The notes beneath the pieces are model-generated. The model saw only the letters and a program-made list of their open reading frames with translations. It searched no databases and was not told the origin of the DNA. From Rhodobacter sp. SGA-6-6 (GTDB lineage Bacteria; Pseudomonadota; Alphaproteobacteria; Rhodobacterales; Rhodobacteraceae), in NCBI RefSeq assembly GCF_011043545.1, contig NZ_JAAKGP010000003.1, forward strand, positions 1-64,000: DNA of 64,000 bases, given 5' to 3'. Shown piece by piece: positions 1-41,453 of this stretch (its first letter is position 1; the number at the start of each line of letters is the position of its first letter). The position numbers and the translations under genes were made by a program.

Positions 1-153
1 AAGCCCCTCGTCGTCACATGCCAAGCCCTGACCATAGACCAAGCGGCGCAACCTCGCCTCAACCCGCGCCATCCCGTCCGGCAGCGTCGGGGCATCGCCC
101 TGGACGACCTCCGCCGCCCGGCGCTGGATGCCGGAGCGATCATCCCCGGGCAT
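1..153 (-). CDS. Partial unknown protein of the integrated element (N-terminal 51 codons)
   Basis: An open frame begins with ATG at 153 on the minus strand and runs without a stop off the left edge. It encodes a basic start (MPGDDRSGIQRRAAE) and an arginine-rich stretch. The start overlaps the end of the upstream gene (stop at 140-142) by 14 bases, so the two are probably co-transcribed. The purine-rich stretch before the ATG is a weak ribosome binding site. I do not recognise the family. The overlap and the shared direction with the integrase module make it likely to be a real gene of the mobile element. Confidence 0.5.
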   Translation of the reverse strand, partial: MPGDDRSGIQRRAAEVVQGDAPTLPDGMARVEARLRRLVYGQGLACDDEGL

Positions 154-673
154 TGGAGGTCTCTTCTCTGACCCGGTAAATTCCGCTCCGAAGGCCGGAC
201 GTGAACATGCCATCCGGGGTGTTCCAAACGAGCAAGACCGTAGGCGTCCCATCGCGGCGCACATGCGGTCGAACCTCGACTAGCCGGGCCAGACGCCGCC
301 CGATCATCATCTCGGTCCCGATAGCGGGCGGGGCGTCGAGATCGACCGCCGGGCGCTGGCGCTTTTTCGGCTTACCCTGCCGAGCCAGATGGATTTCCCG
401 GACGCGCCGGAAATGATCCGCGAGGATTGCGTCGATGACCTCGGGCGCGATGCCGCGATCCAGAAAAGCATCGCCGAGAATTGCGACATGATCCCGCCAG
501 AATTCCGCGCGCTCCTCCCGCGTCTGCATCGACTCCATCCACTCGGCGACCATCGCGTGATCCAGATCGGGAGCGCAGGAGGGGAGCGGGATGACAGCCG
601 CCGGGACCGCCCGGGGCGGACCCGGCTTTCGGTTCATCCGTCTGGTTCGGAGGACACGAAGCTCAGCCGACAC
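140..673 (-). CDS. Unknown protein of the integrated element
   Basis: A 177-residue protein that I do not recognise. It has a basic proline-rich start, a central charged helical part (EWMESMQTREERAEFWRDH) and a C-terminal part rich in R and V. No signal peptide or membrane segment is visible. I prefer the GTG start at 673 because GGGAGG lies about six bases upstream; the next ATG (637) has no ribosome binding site. It lies downstream of the RepA-like ATPase gene and is separated from it by the GGCAAAT repeat cluster. It is probably an accessory or replication-associated protein of the element, but this rests on position only. Confidence 0.55.
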   Translation of the reverse strand: MSAELRVLRTRRMNRKPGPPRAVPAAVIPLPSCAPDLDHAMVAEWMESMQTREERAEFWRDHVAILGDAFLDRGIAPEVIDAILADHFRRVREIHLARQGKPKKRQRPAVDLDAPPAIGTEMMIGRRLARLVEVRPHVRRDGTPTVLLVWNTPDGMFTSGLRSGIYRVREETSNARG

Positions 674-693
674 GATCTGCCTCCCACTGCCTT

Positions 694-880
694 GGCAAAT
701 CGTTCTGGCAAATGGCCCCCACCCCTATAGGGTGGGGGGCCGTCATTTGCCGATTTGCCGGGCGGCAAACGGATTGGCAAATTACGGGCAAACAGCGTGA
801 TTTGCCGTGATTTGCCGATTTGCCGAGGTGGCAAATGACGGGGAGGCAAATTTGCAGCGTAATTTGCCGGATCATTTGCC
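694..880. repeat. Cluster of about 15 GGCAAAT/ATTTGCC heptamers with a GC hairpin; iteron-like
   Basis: Within 187 bases the heptamer GGCAAAT or its complement ATTTGCC occurs about 13 times (for example at 694, 707, 745, 753, 776, 800, 810, 818, 830, 845, 862, 874), with GGCAAAC variants at 764 and 787. Both orientations are present and spacing is irregular, at 8 to 20 bases. A near-perfect hairpin at 714-741 (GGCCCCCACCC, loop, GGGTGGGGGGCC) sits inside. The last copy contains the stop codon of the RepA-like ATPase gene. Such clusters are typical of iteron replication origins or multi-site operators. No ORF on either strand explains the repetition. Confidence 0.7.
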
Positions 881-2056
881 GCCTCCATCCGCTTCTGCGA
901 CCTTCGGGACCGTGAACCACCCGGAGGTCGCCTCGGTCAGATTTCCGTCGAGGACGAGGCGCTTCAACAGCGCTCGCGCGTTCTCGCGTCCGGGCTTCGT
1001 GGCCGGGTCGGATTTCGTCAGTCCCGCGTCGCTGAACACATACGCTGCATCGCTGGCATTGAACCGACGATCCGGGAAGGCATCGGTCAGCAGGCGCAAG
1101 GCCGCCTCGGCGCGGCCATGCGCCGCCTGCGTCTTCACGGTGTTCAGGTCGAGGGCACCCCTGCTTGGTCCCCACGCTTCAATCACCTCATCCTTCTGCG
1201 GCGGCTGAGCTTGGACGACAACGGCGGATGTTACCTCGTCACCATCTTCGTCTCGCCCCAGCACAACCCGCTCGATTCCGAACCACAGAGATGCCGCTGT
1301 TGTGTCGTCCCGCTGCTTGCCCATCTTCATGCACGTCAACCCTTTGCCGTCATCGGGCTGAAAGATCGAAATTGCGGTGTCCACATCGCCGAGCAGGGAC
1401 GAGTGTCCGCGCATCCCCCGGCTGGCGTCCTTGCCCGAGTGGTGAATTACCATGACGTGTGCGCCGATGGCGCGTTGAAGCTTGCGACAGGCCGCCGCGA
1501 AGGCGGCCATGTCGCTGCCGCTGTTCTCGTCTCGACCCGGGCCGAGGCTCTTGTTCAGTGTGTCCACGACGATAAGGCTCGGCGGGCGATCCATGATCTC
1601 GCCGACCATCGCAATCACCGCTTCCACCTCGTCCTCGTCGCAAAGGCTAACCGCGAGCGGAAGGACCTGCATCCCCGCCTGCATGGCGCGGTTCACCAAA
1701 TCGGGATGGACCGCGCGGGCGGCGTGGACCCGGGCCGCGAAACCATCGTCGCCCTCGGCGGCGATATACAGGGCCGGACCGGCCTCCTTGGCGAGCCGGT
1801 GGCCGAACCAGCGATCAGCCCCGGCGGAAAGGTGCAAGGCCAGATCGAGCGCGAGGAAGGATTTACCGACATTCGGGGGTCCATAGATGACGGAAACCGC
1901 GCGTCGGTCGAGGACGCCCTTGACCAGATAGCGCCCCTTCAACACAAGCGGCAGCGCCGAGATGGGGCGCGCCGCGCCGAGGTAGCGCGCCAGCCGATCT
2001 TCGGCCCGTCGCGAGAGGCTGTCAGCGGGTTGCATGTCTTTAGATGCAGCCCTCAT
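872..2056 (-). CDS. RepA-like hexameric replicative helicase / AAA ATPase
   Basis: A 394-residue P-loop ATPase of the RepA/AAA_25 type (RecA fold, as in the hexameric helicase RepA of RSF1010). Walker A is GPPNVGKS at about residues 59-66, Walker B LIVVD at about 161-165, and the conserved IHHSGKD follows at about 204-210. The C-terminal third looks like a winged-helix DNA-binding part. It would move along or unwind DNA during replication of the element, or act as a transposition-type ATPase. Its start overlaps the stop of the upstream small gene by ATGA, so translation is coupled. The GGCAAAT cluster starts at its stop codon, which fits a helicase next to its origin. Confidence 0.8.
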   Translation of the reverse strand: MRAASKDMQPADSLSRRAEDRLARYLGAARPISALPLVLKGRYLVKGVLDRRAVSVIYGPPNVGKSFLALDLALHLSAGADRWFGHRLAKEAGPALYIAAEGDDGFAARVHAARAVHPDLVNRAMQAGMQVLPLAVSLCDEDEVEAVIAMVGEIMDRPPSLIVVDTLNKSLGPGRDENSGSDMAAFAAACRKLQRAIGAHVMVIHHSGKDASRGMRGHSSLLGDVDTAISIFQPDDGKGLTCMKMGKQRDDTTAASLWFGIERVVLGRDEDGDEVTSAVVVQAQPPQKDEVIEAWGPSRGALDLNTVKTQAAHGRAEAALRLLTDAFPDRRFNASDAAYVFSDAGLTKSDPATKPGRENARALLKRLVLDGNLTEATSGWFTVPKVAEADGGGK

Positions 2057-2496
2057 TCCGCACCTCCCGCCAGCACAGGGCCGCTTCCAGTCGCCGGGGG
2101 GTGACCCCCGGCGGCATCGCTCATCACGCTATTTTCGGGGTGGCGCGCGCGCATTTCGGCAAGCCGAGCCTTGCCCTCCGCCCGGCGGGCACCTTCGGCG
2201 GCAACCAGATGCAAAGGCTGGGGCACGAAGCTGTCATGGGCCGCGCCCTCGTGCCGGAGCGTGACCATCATGTCGCCCGGCAGGCCGTGCTGCGACAGCA
2301 GGACGTGCGCGCCATCGACCAGCGGATGCTCGGTCGCCTCGACCAGCAAGCGCCCGTCCTCTGTGAGCGCATCCCAGCGGAGGCGCAGGCCCGCCCTCTC
2401 CGACCTCTGGGAAAGGGTCGGCCACGGAACCCGCCGGGCGACAATGCGAACGACAGCCCCGCCGGTATCGGGCGGGGCGTGGATGTTGGTCTCCAT
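2053..2496 (-). CDS. Unknown small protein between alpA-like and repA-like genes
   Basis: A 147-residue protein without a recognised domain. It begins METNIHAPPDT and contains a VVRIVARRVPWPTL stretch and a segment around GLPGDMMVTLRHEG. The ATG at 2496 lies two bases after the alpA-like stop, and the gene's own stop overlaps the ATPase start by ATGA, so the three genes form one coupled operon. An in-frame extension upstream to 2532 would overlap alpA and is less likely. It may be a replication accessory factor, judged only by position. Confidence 0.55.
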   Translation of the reverse strand: METNIHAPPDTGGAVVRIVARRVPWPTLSQRSERAGLRLRWDALTEDGRLLVEATEHPLVDGAHVLLSQHGLPGDMMVTLRHEGAAHDSFVPQPLHLVAAEGARRAEGKARLAEMRARHPENSVMSDAAGGHPPATGSGPVLAGGAE

Positions 2497-2498
2497 GA

Positions 2499-2678
2499 TC
2501 AGGCCGCCGCCCCGGCCTTCTCGGCCTCCCATTTTTCGATGTCGGTTAGCCGCCAGCGGACGCAGCCGGGCGAGAGGCGCACGGGGTGCGGGAAGCTCGG
2601 ATCGACCTTGAGCCAGCGCCAGACAGTCGGGCGCGACACGTCATAACGCGATGCAATTTGCTTATCCGTGAGGAACAT
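2499..2678 (-). CDS. AlpA-family / excisionase-like helix-turn-helix regulator
   Basis: A 59-residue protein with the MerR-like winged helix of AlpA and excisionases. It begins MFLTDKQIASRYDVSRPTVW, and the recognition helix is around residues 11-22 (RYDVSRPTVWRW). A short wing and the end (RWRLTDIEKWEAEKA) are typical of AlpA proteins that control integrases of islands and satellite prophages. The ATG at 2678 is preceded by GGAAGGTGACA, a good ribosome binding site, and is preferred over an upstream in-frame start at 2855. It is the first gene of the alpA, small protein, repA operon and probably controls that operon and/or int. Confidence 0.8.
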   Translation of the reverse strand: MFLTDKQIASRYDVSRPTVWRWLKVDPSFPHPVRLSPGCVRWRLTDIEKWEAEKAGAAA

Positions 2679-2829
2679 TGTCACCTTCCGTTCTAAGTGG
2701 AAGGCCCTATTATTGACCCGTCTAAATTGAGGTAAAGGGGGGCAATCGCCGGAAGACCCTTCACCTCCCTGAAATACATGCCTGTCAAGGGGAAATATTT
2801 GCATTGGCGAAAGAAATACCGGGGCAAAG

Positions 2830-2880
2830 TTGGGATTTAATCCCAATTCACCCACGCATTACTTTGGGATTATTTCCCAA
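2830..2880. promoter_or_regulatory. Pair of TTGGGATT palindromes, candidate operator between int and the alpA operon
   Basis: TTGGGATT-T-AATCCCAA at 2830-2846 is a perfect 17-base inverted repeat. A second, slightly degenerate copy (TTGGGATT-A-TTTCCCAA) lies at 2864-2880. The centres are 34 bases apart, about three helical turns. A further TTCCCA follows at 2885. The pair is 150 bases upstream of the alpA-like start and 13 bases downstream of the integrase stop, where an operator for the alpA operon is expected. This stretch is much richer in A+T than its surroundings. Confidence 0.5.
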
Positions 2881-2892
2881 TCCGTTCCCATT

Positions 2893-4224
2893 TCATCTCG
2901 AAACATTAGCCTGCGGGAATTGGACGACCACGCCCGCATCGCGCCCGGCGAGATAGTCCGACCACGCTTGCATCATCGCACGGCGGCGCTCGATCATATC
3001 CGTTCGGCGATACGCACGCTCGACCGCGCTCCCGACTGTATGGGCAAGCGCGATCTCGGCCATGTCGCGGTCATAGCCGCGCTCGGCGGCCCAATCGCGG
3101 AATGACGACCGCAGGCCATGGGGCACGGCGGCCTTGCCGCTGCGGGGGTCGCGCCAGCCCGCCTTCGCCGGGTCATGCCCGGCCAAGGCGGCGGCCTTCT
3201 CGGCGCGCTCCTGCATATCGCGCATGACCTTGCTGATGGTCATGTCGCTCATCTGCTTGCCCGTGATGGAAGGGAACACCAGCGGCTGGTCCTTCATCTT
3301 CGGCACGGCCTTGAGCAGCGCCACAGCCGCCGGAGATAGCGGGACGCGGTGTTCGCGGTCCATCTTCATCCTACTCGCGGGGATCACCCACATCGCGGCG
3401 TCTAGGTCGATCTCGTCCCATGTCGCGCCCCGGACCTCGCCCGACCGGCTGGCGCACAAAGCTGCGAATCGCAGCGCCTGCGCACCCATGTCCTCCCGCT
3501 TCAACACCTCGGCCCACCAGCGAGGCACGTCCGACACAGCCAGCGCCGGGAAGTTGCCGGTTTTGCCCTTCTCCACCTGCGCGGGGGCGGGGAGCAGTTC
3601 CTTCAAGTTGCCGCCCCATCTGGCCGGATTATCGCCGCTCCGGTGCCCCTTGACTGTGGCCCACGAGAGGATGCCTTCTAGATAGCCGCGAAGCTTTTGG
3701 CCGGTGTCCGGCTTCTCCGACCAGACCTCTTGCAGGGCGCGCACGATGTCCTGAACCGTGATCGACTGGACCGTCAGCTTGCCAAGCTCGGGCAGCGCAT
3801 ACCGCGTGATCGTGGACTTAATCGCTTTCTGGCTTTTCTCGGGCCGGTCGCTCATCTTCGCGGCCAGCCATTTGTCCATCGCATCCGCGAACAGCAAGTT
3901 CCGGGCCGATGCCGCCGCCAAAGCGGCGCGCACGGCCTTCTTCTCCTCTATCGGATCAATCCCGGCAGCGACCTTGCGCTTCGCCTCTCTGGCCTTCTCC
4001 CGCGCCTCTGCAAGCCCGACCTCGGGGAATGCACCTAGCCCGATGACCCTGCGTCGGTCGCCAATCACGGTTCGCAGAACCCACGACTTCGTTCCGGCGG
4101 CGGTGATCTGTAGCCGCAGTCCGGCCACGCCTCCGACATCTATCCAGTGATGACGGTCCGTTCCGCCCGGATGTGTTGCCCGCTTGATGTCCAGCGGTCC
4201 CAATTCTTTCGCCCGTCTCGGCAT
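2893..4224 (-). CDS. P4-type tyrosine recombinase / integrase
   Basis: A site-specific recombinase of the P4 integrase class with an N-terminal DUF4102-type DNA-binding domain (LGPLDIKRATHPGGTDRHHW, then the GLRLQI strand), a SAM-like core-binding domain and a C-terminal catalytic domain. Catalytic residues are visible: the first Arg in ASRSGEVRGATW, HGLR (His-x-x-Arg), the His of ALAHTVG, and the Tyr nucleophile in VERAYRR near the end. I choose the ATG at 4224 (443 residues, MPRRAKELG) because GGAG lies six bases upstream. The ATG at 4251 would add nine residues. This gene marks the right-hand end of the element. Confidence 0.9.
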   Translation of the reverse strand: MPRRAKELGPLDIKRATHPGGTDRHHWIDVGGVAGLRLQITAAGTKSWVLRTVIGDRRRVIGLGAFPEVGLAEAREKAREAKRKVAAGIDPIEEKKAVRAALAAASARNLLFADAMDKWLAAKMSDRPEKSQKAIKSTITRYALPELGKLTVQSITVQDIVRALQEVWSEKPDTGQKLRGYLEGILSWATVKGHRSGDNPARWGGNLKELLPAPAQVEKGKTGNFPALAVSDVPRWWAEVLKREDMGAQALRFAALCASRSGEVRGATWDEIDLDAAMWVIPASRMKMDREHRVPLSPAAVALLKAVPKMKDQPLVFPSITGKQMSDMTISKVMRDMQERAEKAAALAGHDPAKAGWRDPRSGKAAVPHGLRSSFRDWAAERGYDRDMAEIALAHTVGSAVERAYRRTDMIERRRAMMQAWSDYLAGRDAGVVVQFPQANVSR

Positions 4225-4613
4225 CTCGATCTCCAGCGCTATGGGAAGCATGTTGGATGCGGAATCGAAACCGCCCCCGATAATCCGCTATCCTCTCTGC
4301 TATCCATAAACCTTGCTACAAAACGATATTTTGCGCAACAGCGTTTGACGAGAAATCGGAGCTAAGTCACGGGAATGATTGCAGGTATTTGACTGGATGA
4401 AACAGAACGGAACACGCAAAAACAGGCTCTTGGCCCCCGCTACCCGCTCCAGAATTCCCGATAGGATGACGGCGAAGCGACGGCCCCGTTGCGGGACGGT
4501 TTCTCTGCCCCCAAAACCCGGTCCCCCAACCCGTCGCAATTCCCTCACGCCAGCTTCACCCGGCTGTTGCACGGCCCGGGTAGACGGCGGGGCGAATTGT
4601 CCCGAGGTGCCAC
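4225..4613. other. Non-coding junction between mobile element and chromosome
   Basis: No gene is supported in these 389 bases. The integrase promoter must lie here on the minus strand, and the element boundary (attachment site) is expected here too. I see no complete tRNA. A short hairpin at 4259-4274, read on the minus strand as GCGG-TTTCGATT-CCGC, resembles a T-arm remnant. There is a short direct repeat GCTATCC at 4287 and 4299. GAGGTG just before 4614 is the ribosome binding site of the next gene. Confidence 0.4.
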
Positions 4614-6776
4614 ATGAAGACCCGACTGCTGTCCGCCGCATCCCTGCTTGCCCTGATCACCAGCCCGACCCTTGCCGAGAGCTTCAACCGCATCGCCTCC
4701 TTCCCGGTGGTCGCCAACATGGCCGAGGGCGAGGACAAGGCCCGCACCTCCTCGGCCGAGATCATCTCGGTCTCGGAGGACGGCAATACGCTGATCTACA
4801 CCGACAGCCCGCTGGGCGGCGTCGGGCTGATCGACATCACCGATGCGGCGGCCCCGAAGGCGCTGGGCAACATAGACCTGAAGGGCGAGCCGACCACCGC
4901 CCATATCATCGCGGGCAAGGCCTTCGTCGGGGTCAACACCTCCGAAAGCCGCGCCAATCCGTCCGGCCGCCTCGCGGTGATCGACCTCGCCTCGGCGACG
5001 GAAGTGGAGTCCTGCGATCTGGGCGGCCAGCCGGATTCGGTGGCGGTGGCGCCCGACGGCAGCTTCCTTGCCGTGGCGGTCGAGAACGAGCGCGACGAGG
5101 AGGCCGGCGACGGCGGCCTGCCGCAGATGCCGGCCGGCTATGTCGTCAAGCTGCCGCTGGACGAGGGCAATCTCGATTGCGCCGGGTTGCAGAAGATCGA
5201 CCTGACCGGGCTGGCCGCGGTCGGGGCCGAGGATCCCGAGCCGGAGTTCGTCGATGTCAACGCGGCGGGCGAGATCGTCGTCACGCTGCAGGAGAACAAC
5301 CACATCGTGGTGATCGGCGCCGACGGCGCGGTCGCCGCGCATTTCCCGGCCGGCGCGGTGGTGCTGGAGGGCGTCGACACCCGCACCGACGGCAGGCTGG
5401 ACTTCACCGCCGCCACCGACCCGATCCCGCGGGAGCCGGATGCGGTGAAATGGCTGGATGCCGATCATTTCGCCACCGCGAACGAGGGCGACTGGAAGGG
5501 CGGCTCGCGCGGCTTCACCATCTGGAACAAGGACGGCACCGTGGTCTTCGAGTCCGGCGCCGCGCTGGAACATGCCATCGCCGAGATCGGCCACTATCCC
5601 GAGAAGCGCTCGAAAGCCAAGGGGATCGAGCCGGAAGGGATGGAATTCGCCCGTTTCGGCGAGGTGCCGTATCTCTTCATCCTGTCCGAGCGCGGCTCGG
5701 TCGTCGCGGCCTATGATGTGACCGACCTGACCGCGCCGAAGCTGGTGCAGCTGCTGCCCTCGGGCATCTCGCCGGAGGGTGCGGTGGCGATCCCGGCGCG
5801 CAACCTGTTGGTGACGGCGAACGAGGCCGACCTGGGCGAAGACGGCGCCGCCCGGGCGCATGTGATGATCTACCAACTGTCGGATGCGGCTCCGGCCTAT
5901 CCGATGCTGACCTCGGCCGGCACCGAGGACCTGATCGGCTGGGGCGCGCTCGGGGCGCTGGCTTCGGTCGAAGGAGTGGAGGGCCGGCTGTTCGCGGCCT
6001 CGGACAGCGTCTATGGCGCGATGCCCTCGATCTACGAGATCGACATCACGCAGACCCCGGCGCGGATCGTGGCGCAGACCGTGGTCACGCGCGGCGGCGA
6101 ACCGGCGCAGAAGCTGGACATCGAGGGGCTGACCTCGGATGGCGAGGGCGGCTTCTGGCTGGCCAACGAGGGCGACGCGGCGAAGCTGGTGCCGCACGCG
6201 ATCCTGCATGTGGATGCGAAGGGCGAGATCAAGAAGGAAATCTCGCTGCCGATCGACCTGCTGGCGCAGCAGACCCGCTTCGGCGCCGAGGGGATCGCCA
6301 GGGTGGGCGATAGGCTCTGGGTCGCCATGCAGCGCGAGTGGGGCGACGATCCGAAGGGGCAGGTGAAGCTGCTCTCCTACGATCTGGAGTCCGAAGAATG
6401 GGGAGCGGTGGCCTGGCCGCTGGAGCCGAAGGGCGAGGGCTGGATCGGCCTGTCGGAACTGGCGGTGAAGGGCGACCACCTCTACGTTGTCGAACGCGAC
6501 AACCTGATCGGCGATGCTGCCGTGGTGAAGAAGGTGTTCCGGGTGAAGCTGGAGGACCTGACGCCGGCGAAGCTGGGCGAGACCCTGCCGGTGGTGGCGA
6601 AGGAAGAGGTGCTGGACCTGATCCCGGCGCTGAAGTCGCTGACCAACGGCTATGTCGTCGACAAGGTCGAGGGGCTGGCCTTCGACCATGAGGGCAATGC
6701 CTGGATCGTCACCGACAACGACGGCACCGACGACAGCTCGGGCGAGACGTTGTTCTGGAACGCCGGGCAGCTCTGA
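4614..6776 (+). CDS. Secreted esterase-like/phytase-like beta-propeller protein
   Basis: A 720-residue exported protein. It starts with a signal peptide (MKTRLLSAASLLALITSPTLA, probable cleavage before ESFNR). The first half is a repeat-rich propeller of the choice-of-anchor/LVIVD type (VSEDGNTLIYTDSPLGGVGLIDITD). The last 300 residues match the 'esterase-like activity of phytase' domain, with KLDIEGLTSDGEGGFWLANEGD and KVEGLAFDHEGNAWIVTDNDG. It probably hydrolyses phosphate esters or binds metal in the periplasm, but the substrate is unknown. It is monocistronic and converges on the lysR gene, with a terminator hairpin between them. Confidence 0.8.
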   Translation: MKTRLLSAASLLALITSPTLAESFNRIASFPVVANMAEGEDKARTSSAEIISVSEDGNTLIYTDSPLGGVGLIDITDAAAPKALGNIDLKGEPTTAHIIAGKAFVGVNTSESRANPSGRLAVIDLASATEVESCDLGGQPDSVAVAPDGSFLAVAVENERDEEAGDGGLPQMPAGYVVKLPLDEGNLDCAGLQKIDLTGLAAVGAEDPEPEFVDVNAAGEIVVTLQENNHIVVIGADGAVAAHFPAGAVVLEGVDTRTDGRLDFTAATDPIPREPDAVKWLDADHFATANEGDWKGGSRGFTIWNKDGTVVFESGAALEHAIAEIGHYPEKRSKAKGIEPEGMEFARFGEVPYLFILSERGSVVAAYDVTDLTAPKLVQLLPSGISPEGAVAIPARNLLVTANEADLGEDGAARAHVMIYQLSDAAPAYPMLTSAGTEDLIGWGALGALASVEGVEGRLFAASDSVYGAMPSIYEIDITQTPARIVAQTVVTRGGEPAQKLDIEGLTSDGEGGFWLANEGDAAKLVPHAILHVDAKGEIKKEISLPIDLLAQQTRFGAEGIARVGDRLWVAMQREWGDDPKGQVKLLSYDLESEEWGAVAWPLEPKGEGWIGLSELAVKGDHLYVVERDNLIGDAAVVKKVFRVKLEDLTPAKLGETLPVVAKEEVLDLIPALKSLTNGYVVDKVEGLAFDHEGNAWIVTDNDGTDDSSGETLFWNAGQL

Positions 6777-41272: not shown

Positions 41273-41453
41273 GGGCAAATCCTTCGCGGTCCTGGAAAGG
41301 TGTCGGCTATTTACGGCATGGGTTCCCCTCGGGAAAGGGCGGAAAACGACAGGATTCGCGGCGGGCGCGAAACCTTTTCGCCATGGGGCGCGGCGAATGC
41401 GGGGGGTTGAGTTTGCCGGGGCCAGCGGCCAAGGTCGCGGCAGGAGGGGCAAG

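Follow-up and report, generated by a model that had tools for sequence, protein, structure and literature searches.

A heptamer cassette at the end of a RepA-like ATPase gene as a probable replication origin of a satellite-like element in Rhodobacter

A dense cluster of the heptamer GGCAAAT at the 3' end of a RepA-like ATPase gene in Rhodobacter sp. SGA-6-6 is very probably the replication origin of an integrative, satellite-like element, with the ATPase whose gene ends in the cluster as its initiator and replicative helicase. The window analyzed here is a stretch of 64,000 nucleotides (positions 1 to 64,000 of the forward strand of contig NZ_JAAKGP010000003.1, assembly GCF_011043545.1). A first-pass annotation of the window had named iteron origins and multisite operators as known structures of this kind and had suggested an integrative element able to replicate after excision. 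An origin of the iteron type, next to the RepA-like helicase of such an element, is the best-supported reading: 51 of 79 genome loci have a heptamer cluster close to the stop codon, and motif and protein covary in one subfamily.

The element and its repeat cassette

The genes of the element are all carried on the minus strand, in the order integrase, AlpA-like gene, a gene without a Pfam match, AAA_25 ATPase, cassette, and a gene with a weak DUF6074 match. The features are as follows.

2893 to 4251, minus strand: tyrosine integrase, with Pfam integrase domains
2499 to 2855, minus strand: AlpA-like regulator or excisionase (Pfam Phage_AlpA, 1.8e-5); an open frame whose true start is probably further in
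2053 to 2532, minus strand: gene between the AlpA-like gene and the ATPase gene, without a Pfam match
872 to 2056, minus strand: RepA-like AAA_25 ATPase of 394 aa (Pfam AAA_25, 1.1e-36), the proposed initiator-helicase
905 to 1156, minus strand: C-terminal domain of the ATPase, residues 301 to 384, a predicted winged helix in AlphaFold2 models of the window protein and a relative
950 to 997, minus strand: predicted recognition helix, residues 354 to 369, aligned with the motif-covarying helix of relatives, its role assigned by analogy
694 to 880, no strand: iteron cassette, the proposed origin, with 12 GGCAAAT and 2 GGCAAAC in both orientations
714 to 741, no strand: GC-rich near-palindrome with a TATA center; in the gene's direction, two direct copies before it and two inverted copies after it
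140 to 673, minus strand: gene 3' of the cassette, with a weak DUF6074 match below the Pfam cutoff and homologs at the same place in loci L032 and L033

Since the window starts at base 1 of the contig, the remainder of the element is missing. None of the five window genes scanned with Pfam, which represent an incomplete element, is of the RepC or RepB type. The integrase, the AlpA-type regulator, and the replication gene are transcribed in one direction, which is a feature of phage-inducible chromosomal islands (PICIs), elements that a helper phage induces and packages; the element is satellite-like and is not classed here as a PICI. Its closest matches among the best 80 of 142 candidates in a genome scan are L032 (Rhodobacter viridis) and L033 (Celeribacter naphthalenivorans), which have the integrase, AlpA, ATPase, cassette, and next gene in common with it. 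In L033, two later genes have matches to small terminase subunits (phrog_57, 8.7e-6 and 7.7e-11), and another has a weak match to a head maturation protease family (phrog_53, 4e-5). Some PICIs have genes for a terminase small subunit or for altering the capsid. A search of the source strain's own genome with two L033 proteins as queries gave no match and, being run without a positive control, shows little. The annotation of an Escherichia coli relative (L201) comprises an integrase, AlpA, a RepA-family helicase, a capsid, and a small terminase, and a Klebsiella plasmid relative is annotated with a capsid and terminase. A similar gene order is presumably present in L049 and L066, where it was recognized from the sequences and not by family search.

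Counting both strands, the window contains 13 exact copies of GGCAAAT: 12 fall within 694 to 880, and the other is at 41274. Shuffles of the window contained a mean of 5.8 copies, and 2 of 100 reached 13; scaled to 187 bases, the chance expectation is about 0.02 copies. With 12 of the 13 copies inside 187 bases, it is the clustering, not the total number, that far exceeds chance. Two GGCAAAC variants (764 to 770 and 787 to 793) bring the GGCAAA hexamers in the cassette to 14. The heptamers, read in the gene's direction, follow the order D D I I D D D I I I D D (D, direct; I, inverted), then the GC near-palindrome, then I I, and successive copies start 8 to 18 bases apart, or 39 bases apart across the palindrome. 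The heptamer at 874 to 880 overlaps the ATPase stop codon (872 to 874) by one base, its first. A 201-base single strand spanning the cassette has a DNA folding z score of -8.3 against shuffles.

The first-pass annotation had counted about 13 exact heptamers here, of which the clustering stands and the count falls to 12. Its two GGCAAAC variants, the GC hairpin at 714 to 741, and the start of the cluster at the stop codon of the ATPase gene were all recovered, and the mixed order and 8- to 18-base spacing agree with its remark that both orientations and irregular spacing set the cluster apart from classical iterons. Classical direct-repeat iterons were rejected as a description, the unit being 7 bp and its orientation mixed. 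A terminator at the hairpin was likewise rejected: eight terminator-like sites were found at 1 to 4700, and none coincides with 714 to 741.

The ATPase and its C-terminal domain

The sequence gives the ATPase a RecA-like hexameric-helicase core and a C-terminal domain predicted to be a winged helix, with the repeat cassette at the stop codon. A profile of 43 family members, including the window protein, matches RSF1010 RepA (1g8y) at 1.3e-12, and the predicted model of a relative matches structure 1nlf. No primase part was detected by Pfam or PHROGs in the 394-aa window protein, the matches falling in the ATPase core. In the model of the window protein, helices at residues 301 to 326, 334 to 343, and 354 to 369 are followed by two very short strands, with pLDDT values of 75 to 92 by block over residues 311 to 380. 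In the model of the relative L148, made without DNA, a single helix spans residues 322 to 338, two short strands come after it (mean pLDDT, 87), and the C-terminal domain has the order helix-strand-helix-helix-strand-strand, from which a winged helix is predicted. Four C-terminal domains, including that of the window protein, were searched against Pfam; none of the four gave a credible match, and no known family could be assigned to the domain.

Cassettes in related loci

The ATPase was matched in 35 of 198 genomes searched, the source genome included. At least 9 of the 29 other loci from that search have a heptamer cluster at the stop codon (L003, L004, L009, L010, L012, and L015 to L018), and the motifs of all nine differ from GGCAAAT. 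Two collections were then scanned, taking the best 80 of 142 genome candidates and the best 80 of 426 viral-contig candidates; the gene end could be examined in 158 of these 160 loci, L078 and L187 being cut too close to it. Within the genome set, 51 of 79 loci have at least five copies of one heptamer per 200 bp close to the stop codon, versus 4 of 632 control windows drawn from the same loci by the same procedure, and 38 of 79 loci have at least six copies, versus none of the 632. The other 28 of these 79 loci stay under five copies. Conservation of the heptamer at the same place had been set beforehand as the check on the first-pass reading. The exact GGCAAAT is not conserved, as relatives use other motifs, and conservation of the letters was rejected; a heptamer cluster of some kind is present in the 51 loci. 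The gene order from the integrase to the next gene recurs in L032 and L033, both with variant motifs.

Among the viral contigs, 25 of the 40 in L112 to L151 have at least four copies, and 37 of the 39 examined in L152 to L191 have three or fewer in 250 bp at the stop codon. The related ATPases of L152 to L191, at least 36 of 40 of which share 41 to 43% identity with the query, are mostly without a dense stop-codon cluster. Since such loci, and some of the phages described below, lack the cluster, the helicase family exists without the cassette too.

The cassette table holds 147 entries, 98 of them with at least five copies, and includes only L168, L173, and L174 from L152 to L191. The 87 nonidentical cassettes with at least five copies carry 34 heptamer labels, some of which are shifted readings of one motif, so the true number of motifs is lower. 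All 24 cassettes that were laid out have copies in both orientations. A common short cassette of about 105 bp begins with a run of three or four copies; after a spacer, two direct copies stand before a palindrome and two inverted copies behind it. A strict palindrome with GC arms and an AT center occurs in 37 of the 87 cassettes versus 3.0 expected from shuffles, and 26 of the 37 are flanked by a direct copy to the left and an inverted one to the right. The remaining 50 cassettes fail the strict test, among them that of the window, whose near-palindrome is slipped by one base. The AT centers are often TTTA, TATA, or TAAA, between the last direct and the first inverted copy.

In several loci, many of them from Paracoccus, the repA reading frame continues through the cassette, and the proposed origin is thus also coding sequence there. 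Such frames were seen in L035, L037, L040, L042, L043, L044, L045, L048, L114, and L116. L056 and L133 agree in length and match position and apparently represent a single contig present in two collections; their RepA ends early with an unalignable C-terminal domain, an 8-copy cassette lies further downstream, and they are probably a broken copy.

Covariation of the motif with a helix of the ATPase

The relationship between motif and protein was analyzed for motifs of the form CGTNNCM, a subfamily to which the window motif does not belong; the motif of L068 was relabeled by hand from GTGACAA to CGTGACA. The information ranking left out L046, L056, L133, and R163, and the later tests were run without L056, L133, L004, and L069, and the tree-pair test also without L123, on account of broken, cut, or badly aligned C termini. 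Across 44 unique proteins and 263 variable columns, the most motif information lies in residues 327, 330, 331, 320, and 321 (L148 numbering). Typical pairs are R-T-A-F with CGTCACA, R-Q-A-F with CGTGACA, R-V-A-F with CGTTACA, R-K-A-F with CGTTACC, and R-T-A-F-H-K with CGTTCCC; exceptions include L062, L110, L039, and L043. Residue 327 alone does not fix the motif, with T found with both CGTCACA and CGTTCCC and V with both CGTTACA and CGTTACC.

Training on a clade of 20 proteins picked residues 327, 330, 321, 324, 280, and 331, and training on the other 25 proteins picked 327, 330, 331, 271, 85, and 267. Each selection was then applied to the proteins it had not been trained on, where six variable C-terminal columns chosen at random equaled the picks in 1 of 200 and 0 of 200 draws. 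Mapped by parsimony onto a tree of the helicase core alone, the motif changes 19 times, compared with an average of 26 and a minimum of 21 for shuffled labels. Disjoint nearest pairs on this tree differ at residue 327 in 16 of 16 cases when their motifs differ versus 3 of 18 cases when they share a motif, which is the largest contrast among 318 positions.

Pairs of proteins were also compared at given levels of core identity, using six helix-region residues that were chosen on the same data, a circularity that the clade-split and tree-pair tests answer in part. At 90 to 99% core identity, the six residues are 100% identical in pairs with the same motif (n = 16) and 58% identical in pairs with different motifs (n = 21), whereas the rest of the C-terminal domain has an identity of 0.84 in both. 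At 70 to 80% core identity, the values are 0.70 versus 0.26 for the six residues and 0.71 versus 0.59 for the rest of the domain. Outside the six residues, the domain tracks the motif weakly or not at all. At 40 to 50% core identity the six residues no longer separate the classes (0.17 versus 0.20, with only three same-motif pairs). Between L148 and L132, 8 residues of the C-terminal part, 25 of the core, and a single motif base are different. As the window protein belongs to another subfamily, the recognition-helix role is assigned there by analogy. Because the motif and the recognition helix change together in relatives, the elements behave as if each mainly read, and served, its own origin.

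Phages and plasmids carrying the module

The phage and plasmid records were hand-picked among 795 and 16 matching records, respectively, so that the fractions given here are not rates. The cluster is present in 8 of 14 phage records (CRP-811, 821, 823, 831, 1N2-2, RHph_N65, 16-3, and XX1924) and absent from 6 (1.210.O, GB2A, Sour, ct76p945, Mae-JY30, and HokkenD); it is likewise absent from the Salmonella contig examined. The Roseobacter phages fall into two motif classes, CTACAAA in CRP-811 (L193) and CRP-823 (L203) and GTATAAA in CRP-821 (L202) and CRP-831 (L192), at nearly the same positions and in the same layout. The last part of RepA tracks the motif class across the four phages, and the N-terminal part of the CRP-823 protein resembles that of CRP-821. 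The four phages show a natural exchange of C terminus and cassette; since adjacent sequences are inherited together, this exchange by itself is no proof of recognition. One host strain is listed for both CRP-821 and CRP-823, which differ in motif. GC skew along the complete CRP-831 genome does not switch at the cassette, and it was rejected as an origin test because its sign follows gene direction. The words "iteron" and "repeat" are absent from the searched portion of the paper on the CRP phages (PMC12629253).

All six plasmid records examined, of 16 with a homolog, have the cluster. Plasmid pMRAD08 (21 kb) and a plasmid of Methylobacterium currus (35 kb) are circular records with the ATPase, the cassette, and ParA, and in the latter the ATPase gene comes after a toprim-domain gene. 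Pfam (E value, 0.001) found no plasmid Rep family in 24 of 24 listed proteins of pMRAD08 or in 45 of 46 listed proteins of the M. currus plasmid, and no plasmid Rep was found in pMRAD08 among 25 of 50 NCBIfam families listed. An undescribed Rep or an unlisted gene could serve instead in these two plasmids. The circular alphaproteobacterial plasmid records L210, L211, and L212 contain phage genes, and their heptamers are most densely clustered in the cassette behind the AAA_25 gene; these are likely phage-plasmids or satellite-plasmids.

Proposed function and alternatives

Autonomous replication of the window element is what we infer from this arrangement. After excision of the element, RepA would bind the heptamers via its C-terminal domain, and its hexamers would assemble in both orientations. 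The DNA would open at or near the cassette and replication would start, with a primase coming from the host, from a helper, or from an unseen gene. As a guess, melting or priming may take place at the palindrome.

The same cluster could instead be a multisite operator through which RepA or another element protein regulates the downstream operon or its own level, with replication starting elsewhere. We consider this unlikely. The cassette does lie upstream of the next same-strand gene (140 to 673), and the covariation indicates recognition by RepA and not origin function as such. It is, however, located 3' of repA, at the position that is the origin in PICIs according to the available text of PMC6092414; it falls within the repA frame in several loci, and two plasmids carry it without another recognized Rep family.

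It is still less probable that the cluster serves packaging or partition, with the small subunit of a terminase or a protein like ParB as its reader. This reading could draw on the two L033 proteins matching small terminase subunits and on the ParA of two plasmid records, but the motif covaries with RepA's own helix, and the cassette stays at repA even where the downstream genes differ between loci. The strong folding of the single strand would fit repeats that no protein reads, either a mobile or decaying family or a structure acting in the RNA, for instance a terminator, but this is hardly credible for a cassette that keeps its position and not its letters, whose copies change together with RepA residues, and whose hairpin matches none of the eight terminator-like sites.

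The origin reading can be extended to a broader proposal, to which we give about an even chance of being correct. Satellites, phages, and phage-plasmids would share one widespread family of RepA-type initiator-helicases, in which a few recognition-helix residues repeatedly switch origin specificity and the repeat copies change along with them, so that the motif is largely readable from the protein. The diversity would reflect pressure against cross-recognition, be it by coresident elements or by nucleases targeting foreign origins. If the origin reading itself is right, dozens of natural protein-site pairs, such as L148 and L132, would make a ready system for studying the coevolution of an initiator with multiple sites. 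The motif would also offer a sequence handle for locating the origins of satellites, phages, and phage-plasmids, and a means to predict the elements that can coexist.

Comparison with known replication systems

The helicase core matches RepA of the IncQ plasmid RSF1010 in sequence and fold. In RSF1010, a separate protein, RepC, binds 20-bp direct tandem iterons, and RepB is the primase. In contrast, the window helicase has its own predicted DNA-binding domain, and its repeats are 7 bp long and of mixed orientation. The alpha protein of satellite phage P4 is a helicase that recognizes short repeats in both orientations (ori and crr), and a P4-type replicon has primase, helicase, and origin-binding domains in one protein. 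The window element resembles P4 in combining a helicase with short repeats in both directions; it differs in that neither Pfam nor PHROGs detects a primase part in its helicase and in that its cassette is one cluster next to the helicase gene. RepA of the PLE satellites of Vibrio cholerae is a RepA_N-type initiator with three repeats of about 30 bp, and we know of no helicase part in it. According to the available text of PMC8263062, its DNA-binding domain and the origin vary together as a module, a trait shared with the relatives of the window ATPase.

The closest parallel is with PICIs, as described in the available text of PMC6092414 and PMC7581432. Like the window, PICIs (SaPIs and EcCICFT073) have an initiator gene followed directly by an origin of short repeats, and those of the Gram-negative kind have int and AlpA nearby. 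The region 3' of rep is the origin, and rep plus ori sustain a plasmid (PMC6092414); in SaPIs, the origin is recognized by the C-terminal domain of Rep (PMC6092414, PMC7581432). The authors of PMC6092414 knew this layout from no other bacterial replicon and Gram-negative PICIs from Gammaproteobacteria only. The window helicase is RecA-like (RepA/AAA_25), unlike two SaPI Reps, which PMC7581432 in its available text places near DUF927 and D5-type helicases. Unlike PICIs, the window has no AT-rich region between two iteron sets, its cassette encloses a GC palindrome, and its layout is found in complete phage genomes too. The replication logic is that of SaPI/PICI origins, and the helicase family, the palindrome, the lack of an AT-rich spacer, and the occurrence in complete phages make it a variant. 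If true, the PICI-type layout would be extended to complete phages and to Alphaproteobacteria. No report of the alphaproteobacterial spread, of a palindrome within the cassette, of complete phages with this layout, or of a link at the residue level from motif to helix was found in the available text of the open-licence literature, which may lack work on SaPI Rep specificity published in subscription journals. The longest gap between copies in the window cassette is 33 bp with 27% AT, and the cassette of the E. coli relative L201 has a 60-bp gap with 62% AT.
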